A DNA stretch of 37,953 nt, taken from the NCBI GenBank assembly GCA_009841255.1, contig VXMD01000017.1:1-37953 (forward strand), written 5' to 3'. The translations under genes and the position numbers were made by a program. Positions 5,774 to 7,761 of the stretch are shown piece by piece. The first letter of the stretch is position 1. Every line of letters starts with the position of its first letter. The notes under the pieces were generated by a model, which was given only the letters and a program-made list of their open reading frames with translations, had not been told where the DNA came from and did not search any database. This DNA is from Candidatus Poribacteria bacterium. GTDB taxonomy: Bacteria; Poribacteria; WGA-4E; WGA-3G.

Positions 5774-6307
5774 CTACAACTGAATCTTCAACAGTCCATA
5801 AGTCCAATCCGAAATCTGATAACCGAAGTTACTGTAAAAGAGAAAGGCACGATAATTTTCCCAATCGGTGCTAATCGCAGCGTGCCGATATCCGATATTA
5901 CGCATCTCGTGGAATGTTCGTTGGAGCAAATGGCGACCTATGCCCTGTCCCTGAAATTCGTCCTTCACACCAAGCCACGTAGTGTGGAACCAATCTTGCG
6001 CGTCAGAGCGGTCCGAAAACTCACCGCCCGATACAGACTGACAATTGCCGATCTCTATTCCATCGCGAAGCGCTTGCACAGTGCAGTTTGGGCGTTCGCC
6101 TCTACCGGGTTCCCAATGCACAGAAAACTCCAGCTGCAGTGTCAGTCCGATTGGAACGACAGTGTAGTTTTCCCATGTTAAAAATACCTCACCCAACTTA
6201 CGCTGGTACTTTTTATACCCCAGAAGTGCTTGAACCTGTCCAAGAGTCGTCGAGAGGTAAGCGTATCTAAAATGGTAAAACCGGTACCGGTAATCCTGAG
6301 GGAAGGC
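5774..6307 (-). pseudogene. GNAT acetyltransferase, C-terminal portion separated from its start by an IS insertion
   Basis: The frame is open from 6307 to the stop at 5774. It reads AFPQDYRYRFYHFRYAYLS, then LGQVQALLGYKKYQRKLGE, then a GNAT domain with the acetyl-CoA loop EFQGQGIGRHLL and the AISTDWENYRAFLFYSNFGY motif. A TTG at 6196 could start a shorter protein of about 140 residues, but coding sequence clearly continues upstream to the edge of the tnpB element. The matching N-terminus lies on the other side of the element (7582-7761). The protein looks like a two-domain GNAT whose first domain is disrupted. The acetyl-CoA site of the second domain is intact, so a residual product is possible. 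Confidence 0.8.
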
Positions 6308-6390
6308 GTTGAACCCTCTCCAGACTAAAGTCTGGAGATTCCTTTTGTTCCTCGTGGGAACATTCTCCGCTCAGGCGGAGCAACATCGGC
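6308..6390 (-). ncRNA. Predicted right-end (omega/reRNA) guide scaffold of the TnpB element
   Basis: Reading the minus strand, hairpins occur at 6380-6365 (CTCCGC-4-GCGGAG, overlapping the tnpB stop), 6362-6346 (TGTTCC-5-GGAACA) and 6337-6318 (CTCCAGAC-4-GTCTGGAG), followed by AGGGTTCAAC at the element end. In known TnpB elements the guide RNA is processed from this region, and its guide is the flanking DNA. Here the guide would begin GCCTTCCCTCAGGATTACCG, inside the GNAT gene. The scaffold probably extends further upstream into the tnpB coding region. The RNA is inferred, not shown. Confidence 0.5.
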
Positions 6391-7573
6391 CTTCTAAGCG
6401 AATTCCGACGGGCGATGCCATAGTCGCCGCTACTGGGGTGCCTAAACACCCAAGATACTTTTGTCTTATATTAATCGCACCAACGCCATCGCGGTGCCAT
6501 TCAAACCCACACTTGCATTTGTAGTTACGCTTTTGAGGCTTATTCCTCTTACCGCAATTCAAACAAGTCTGTGAAGTATACGCCTCATTAATCACCTCCA
6601 CTTTGATACCTAAAGCCTCTGCTTTGTAGGTTATCAGTTGCGTGATTTTACCAAACGCCCACTGATGTAACTTTTGATTGGACTTTTTACCGTAATCTAT
6701 ATCATCGCGTATATGCGTTAAATCGCCCAAAACAATAGTGCCAACGCCTCGCTCTTCGCAAATCTTCACAAACTTTGTAGTATGCTTGTGTAAACCATCG
6801 CGTATCTGATTATCTATCTTTTTGATGCGTTTCCATTTACGTCGCACCAAGTGCCACCAACGCTGAGAATGACGCTCACACCTGTCTATCTTTGTGTTCA
6901 TAGACGCAATTACCTTATTCCTCAACCGGTATAAACTTCTAATATACCGCCCATTGAAAATCTCAGTAATCACACCATCATGAGACACCATAGGATGCAC
7001 CTCGCCAATGTCAACACCTACAACTCCTTCCGCTTCCGATTTCTCACTCTCATCAATCTTGTAAACAAAATGTAACTCATACTGACCCCTGTTATACACA
7101 AGATTGATGAGAGTAGGAGCATTTTTCATATCAAAGTTCTTTGGCAAATCTACCACCAAAGACTTACCACACCTACCATTAGACAAAACAACCTGCTTAC
7201 CAAACAAACCCTCTTTGAAACGAATTGCTGACTTTTTCCAAGTGGTTGTTTGAAAGCGTTTCTCTTTATGCGGAGGTCTGGCGGTTTTATCGCCATTACG
7301 TCTTAACACCCGAAAACCATACCAATTCTTGAAGTAACGCGAACGCACCTCTTGTATACTTTGTGAATGAATGGGTTGCGATTTACTTAACTTCTTATCC
7401 ATCCATAATTCACACGACTTAATACAAGGAAAGTAACCCCACGAACCATGCATATAACACCATACCTCCTGTAACGCCAAACACTCACCCCATACCGACG
7501 CTGAGGCAGAATTCAACTCATCCAAGTGTTCAGTATACGGGATCTTGAGTTTATAGGTTCGCATTTTTACCAT
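6371..7573 (-). CDS. tnpB: TnpB RNA-guided nuclease (IS605 OrfB family) with altered RuvC-II
   Basis: This 400-residue full-length TnpB has RuvC-I GVDIG (D188), RuvC-II IVLGDLTHIRDD (residues 280-291), a zinc-ribbon with C337, C340, C353 and C355 (CLNC and CKC), and RuvC-III HRDGVGAIN (D362). The canonical RuvC-II motif is an E-D-L type; here the Glu position is Gly283. A Glu occurs instead at E330 in INEAYTSQTC, as reported for TnpB lineages with a rearranged catalytic site. The C-terminal tail MASPVGIRLEGRCCSA is family-typical. The start may be 7573, or 7564 (MRTYKLKI), which is better spaced from GAGG. The frame is intact and the region looks more AT-rich than its neighbours, consistent with recent transfer. 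Confidence 0.93.
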   Translation of the reverse strand: MVKMRTYKLKIPYTEHLDELNSASASVWGECLALQEVWCYMHGSWGYFPCIKSCELWMDKKLSKSQPIHSQSIQEVRSRYFKNWYGFRVLRRNGDKTARPPHKEKRFQTTTWKKSAIRFKEGLFGKQVVLSNGRCGKSLVVDLPKNFDMKNAPTLINLVYNRGQYELHFVYKIDESEKSEAEGVVGVDIGEVHPMVSHDGVITEIFNGRYIRSLYRLRNKVIASMNTKIDRCERHSQRWWHLVRRKWKRIKKIDNQIRDGLHKHTTKFVKICEERGVGTIVLGDLTHIRDDIDYGKKSNQKLHQWAFGKITQLITYKAEALGIKVEVINEAYTSQTCLNCGKRNKPQKRNYKCKCGFEWHRDGVGAINIRQKYLGCLGTPVAATMASPVGIRLEGRCCSA

Positions 7574-7581
7574 ACCTCGTT

Positions 7582-7761
7582 TTATTGAAAACCACCCAAA
7601 ACAACTAACAGATACAACGCTGTCTCATAGGCAGGACACATTAGAACGTTACCCAATTCGTCTTCGCTTACGGGATAGCAGTGTGGGACGTTCATAGTAA
7701 GGTTGTTATAGCAGCGTGCTATTGACCTTTGCATTTCTGGAGTATATTCAAGGATTTCCAT
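7582..7761 (-). pseudogene. GNAT acetyltransferase, N-terminal portion cut by the tnpB element
   Basis: A 59-codon frame starts at an ATG at 7761, preceded by GGGGGA seven bases away. It reads MEILEYTPEMQRSIARCYN, then NVPHCYPVSEDELGNVL, the beta1-alpha1-alpha2 start of a GNAT domain. After about codon 40 it runs into apparent element sequence and stops at 7582, just before the tnpB ribosome binding site. Joined to the 5774-6307 portion it would make a two-domain GNAT, but about 50-60 residues of the first domain (the beta2-beta4 region) seem to be missing. The insertion was probably accompanied by a deletion, or one occurred later. Confidence 0.7.

Follow-up and report, generated by a model that had tools for sequence, protein, structure and literature searches.

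A left-truncated TnpB element inside a split two-domain GNAT gene of Candidatus Poribacteria

In a genome of Candidatus Poribacteria, a tnpB element lies between two reading frames that both resemble GNAT acetyltransferases. This raises the question of whether the frames are the two ends of one interrupted gene and, if so, whether a simple insertion accounts for what is left of it. The locus is part of a 37,953-nucleotide stretch of DNA (contig VXMD01000017.1 of assembly GCA_009841255.1), referred to here as the window. A sequence-only reading had proposed that the element split a two-domain GNAT gene, that about 50-60 residues of the first domain seem to be gone, and that, besides the insertion, either a left-end deletion or subsequent decay is likely. 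On the minus strand, the N-terminal GNAT frame (7761->7582) is followed by tnpB (7573->6371), the structured 3' end of the element (to 6309) and the C-terminal GNAT frame (6308->5774), comprising the following features:

7620..7761, minus strand: N-terminal GNAT fragment, GNAT nt 1-142 (MEILEYTPEM...YET); protein identity of 70-73% and DNA alignment.
7579..7619, minus strand: 41 nt of untraceable source at the putative deletion junction, giving the last codons and the TAA stop of the N-terminal frame; no significant match.
7574..7578, minus strand: GAGGT, ribosome-binding site of tnpB and left edge of the surviving element; last base pairs in common with sister copies.
6371..7573, minus strand: tnpB, an open reading frame of 400 aa, alternative-glutamate (Ealt) type; NCBIfam, Pfam and motifs.
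6309..6414, minus strand: right end of the element with its 3' structured RNA (predicted omegaRNA scaffold), ending ..GGAGAGGGTTCAA at 6309; aligned copies and covarying fold.
5774..6308, minus strand: C-terminal GNAT fragment (second acetyltransferase domain and end of the first); 71-73% identity and Pfam Acetyltransf_7/1.

Two ends of one GNAT gene

When the protein joined from both GNAT fragments was used as a query against 60 related genomes, intact GNAT proteins of 299 aa were found in G022, G025 and G035. The N-terminal fragment is 70-73% identical to residues 1-48/50 of these proteins and the C-terminal fragment 71-73% identical to residues 122/123-299; both fragments thus align to the same protein, and both segments are present in the intact homologues. 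The three intact genes also have the neighbours seen in the window, a regulator, a ferredoxin and a hypothetical gene on one side and HATPase, STAS and SpoIIE on the other. In the homologue from G022, Pfam recognizes Acetyltransf_1 in two separate stretches. Judged by these matches, the frames at 7582-7761 and 5774-6308 are evidently the two ends of one gene for a two-domain GNAT acetyltransferase, and the proposal that the tnpB element split such a gene holds. Full-length GNAT function has presumably been lost in the window genome, which carries two more distant tandem GNAT paralogues (57-60% identical) on another contig. No close solved structure was found for the GNAT.

The C-terminal frame (A-F-P-Q-D-Y...) is free of stop codons from 6308, next to the end of the element, to its stop at 5774, just as had been described. 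The N-terminal frame (7761->7582, minus strand), 59 codons long and closed by the TAA at 7582, had been taken as a whole for the matching N-terminus; this applies to 7620-7761, but its final ~10 codons (LYLLVVLGGFQ, within 7579-7619) do not belong to GNAT. Aligned at the DNA level with the three intact genes, the gene breaks off on the left after GNAT nt 142 (..TATGAGACAG) and resumes on the right at nt 366. The absent stretch therefore comprises nt 143-365, that is 223 nt or ~74 codons, and the earlier figure of 50-60 residues was too low.

The 41 junction nucleotides have no traceable source. In pattern searches, 36 of them were unique in their own genome with up to 3 mismatches allowed, and a 27-nt piece had no match in 37 congeners. 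Local alignment revealed no significant similarity of the 41 nt to the absent GNAT stretch, the left regions of sister copies or the rest of the window, and the match to tnpB was weak, with 11 of 200 shuffles scoring as high.

An element with one end

The tnpB product matches the NCBIfam model guided_TnpB (E=3.2e-52) as well as OrfB_IS605 and Cas12f1-like_TNB in Pfam, and carries the TnpB motifs VGVDIG, VLGDLTHI, NEAYTSQTC (ExxxxxxC) and HRDG; by these profiles, the element can be assigned to the TnpB insertions of IS200/IS605 (OrfB) type. Alignment with solved Cas12f-like proteins pairs VLGDLTHI with their MEDLTNI and shows a Gly in place of the canonical RuvC-II Glu, and NEAYTSQTC provides an alternative Glu six residues ahead of the first zinc-finger Cys. 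Ealt TnpBs are defined by precisely this combination, with ExxxxxxC preceding the zinc finger and a residue other than Glu at the canonical site in RuvC-II (PMC10711439). The alternative Glu was found in all sister copies checked, and the Gly substitution is evidently a family trait rather than damage; by that criterion, this TnpB would not be a dead nuclease. A dead-nuclease (TldR-like) reading, prompted by VLGDL, was ruled out, as all copies checked have the described alternative Glu.

The right end of the element lies at 6309 (..GGGTTCAA). In a 17-row alignment of copies from the same genome and from congeners, 14 rows, the window and 13 other copies, end in ..GTTCAA and the remaining 3 in ..ATGTCA at the same column, with unrelated flanks beyond; the related copies in the same genome are 93% and 92% identical to that of the window. 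Over its final 106 nt, the element folds into five helices, in which 98.5% of cells are paired and 8 pairs carry changes on both sides; the covariation score was reached by 0 of 500 shuffles, and single-sequence folding of the region yields z = -4.1. Rfam contains no family matching the window. The window copy has a subterminal hairpin, and its conserved right end overlaps with the 3' RNA; the structured 3' end would fit the guide-RNA scaffold of TnpB elements. The would-be guide at 6289-6308 (CGCCTTCCCTCAGGATTACC) partly matches a GNAT paralogue in the same genome (G000:C81, L073: CGCTTTCCCGCAGGACTGCC; 16/20 by eye).

At the other end, homology between the window and the sister copy L003 of the same genome stops exactly at GAGGT, at 7578. 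Upstream of this site, L003 and L041 (in G031) have ~50 nt in common, including TTGACT..TATAAT, with similar hairpins further out, and L042 shares the promoter part with both. The window copy has neither this promoter nor the hairpin region and is a remnant truncated on the left rather than a complete element. Since IS200/IS605-type elements need both ends, it should be stranded and unable to transpose. A weak promoter-like match is found at 7768-7741, where such matches amount to 2 in the region versus 1.9 expected by chance; any transcription of tnpB would now probably come from outside the element, for example from the old GNAT promoter. TnpB elements of the IS200/IS605 type have a TAM immediately 5' of their insertion point and produce no target duplication. 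The corresponding site in the window is deleted; in intact orthologues, the insertion point is preceded by ATTGT or ATCGT. A search for empty sites corresponding to L003 and L041 did not fix the left tip and the TAM, as the flanks diverge or are repetitive in the relatives.

Three copies in the same genome (L001, L002 and L003) have bodies that are 92-93% identical and completely different 5' regions, with a promoter and hairpin in L003 and a pseudoknot leader in L002; the changeover falls directly at the start codon, a pattern that we read as modular exchange of the upstream region. The structured leader occupies ~90 nt before the tnpB start in L002 and L046-L053, takes the form GCATTGCTGGTAGAGA...TCTCTACC...ATAGCATCGG..AGCAATG..GGAG and ends at the ribosome-binding site. 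It is present in 30 of 38 congeners (e.g. G000:C64:53271-53355), and its pseudoknot covaries, with 5/6 pairs changed on both sides. Rfam returned no match for the sister-copy leaders. A model derived from them finds >80 sites across the genus, of which many precede tnpB genes of different types, others lie ahead of unrelated genes and a few are in tandem; the leader is possibly an undescribed RNA regulator. The same genome also encodes Y1-type transposases (G000:C18:145969-146337, G000:C18:150772-151104 and G000:C46:1069-1413), of which the two on G000:C18 share their contig with the L003 copy and are a possible source of mobility in trans.

Origin of the locus and fate of the gene

An insertion followed or accompanied by one deletion over the left junction very probably explains this locus. 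On this view, an IS200/IS605-type TnpB element, oriented like its host gene, would have entered the two-domain GNAT gene at codon 122, between nt 365 and 366. Either then or later, a single deletion would have removed the left end of the element, with its terminal hairpin region and promoter, together with GNAT nt 143-365, leaving ~41 nt of untraced sequence at the join and the right junction undisturbed. The two ends of GNAT, the extent of the gap, the element's right end and the lack of its left region are directly observed, and from these we infer a single deletion; as the right GNAT junction is in frame and open, the deletion was one-sided. Of the additional events envisaged by the sequence-only reading, it is thus the left-end deletion that applies, and it took the element's own left end as well. 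No other genome searched carried this insertion, so that the order of insertion and deletion can be judged only indirectly.

Elsewhere in the genus, the gene has met various fates. G033 retains a 5'-truncated remnant with the second domain only (L106, G033:C167:13375-13713), at which the contig ends, and G013 has a ~25-codon GNAT scar (HAVISTDRENYRAFLFCRNFGYQVS) at the syntenic site (L109, G013:C93:203-280); both remnants arose independently of the split in the window. In the close congeners G010, G030, G017, G008 and G024, a spacer of 158-159 nt without GNAT occupies the site, and the gene is also absent in most more distant congeners. It is conceivable, if unlikely, that the second domain survives as a stand-alone protein, reflecting domain separation under selection rather than plain loss, a reading that concerns what remains of the gene and is compatible with its disruption by insertion and deletion. 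The C-terminal frame has stayed open, an open frame with an ATG is independently retained over the same domain in G033, and the pairwise dN/dS of the second domain (0.08 versus G022) is no higher than that between intact genes (0.10). However, the divergence is mostly older than the split, the domain was lost too in G013 and five other congeners, and the excess of change in the first-domain remnant over the second domain was not significant in a relaxed-selection test (p = 0.29 and 0.20).

The decay of the locus in this clade, with a remnant in G033, a scar in G013 and nothing in five close congeners, could also mean that an internal deletion or another form of decay had already shortened the GNAT gene when the element inserted, and that the left end was lost in a separate event. 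Two deletions would then have to coincide, as the GNAT gap and the absent left end of the element abut at one junction; moreover, the C-terminal fragment contains no stop codon or frameshift and therefore shows no sign of long decay before the insertion, making this sequence of events quite improbable. That a chimeric assembly joined unrelated pieces is scarcely credible even for a draft genome of 87 contigs with an unexplained 41-nt junction, given that the two fragments come from one gene, retain its order and orientation and have conserved neighbours on both sides on one 72.8-kb contig, that no near-identical repeat spans the junction, and that assembly collapse is unlikely because the closest copies are only 92-93% identical.

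With insertion and a left-junction deletion as the preferred explanation, the locus represents ordinary genome decay and an ordinary kind of gene loss. It does, however, display the loss of one accessory gene within a genus cleanly: at the same syntenic site, the gene is variously intact, tnpB-split and trimmed, cut down to a single domain, worn to a scar, or missing altogether. The locus also illustrates that a tnpB copy can retain its open frame and 3' RNA after losing its left end and promoter. We regard it as very improbable that the immobilised tnpB and its 3' RNA, with a GNAT-derived guide (CGCCTTCCCTCAGG...), still form an active nuclease complex, expressed from an external promoter and cutting incoming intact GNAT alleles. 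If this were true, the loss of GNAT would be enforced by the very element that broke the gene.

Relation to known elements

Insertion of an IS element with a one-sided adjacent deletion is a general phenomenon, and the locus follows it in that the deletion would start within one terminus of the element and reach into the neighbouring host gene; unlike the usual case, the join carries ~41 nt of untraceable sequence. Like TnpB-only elements of the IS200/IS605 family (IS1341 group), the element has a single tnpB of the OrfB_IS605/guided_TnpB type and a 3' structured RNA that extends to the right end with its terminal hairpin and ..TTCAA end, beyond which the flank would supply the guide. In contrast to these elements, the window copy has no left end, with no tnpA alongside. 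In its protein, the second half of the zinc finger reads CxC instead of the CxxC of Ealt TnpBs, and RuvC-I has DIG where pro-Fanzors have DPG (PMC10711439). With the Ealt TnpBs of Fanzor ancestry (PMC10711439), it shares, as do all copies checked, the ExxxxxxC of RuvC-II and the D-hydrophobic-G of RuvC-I.
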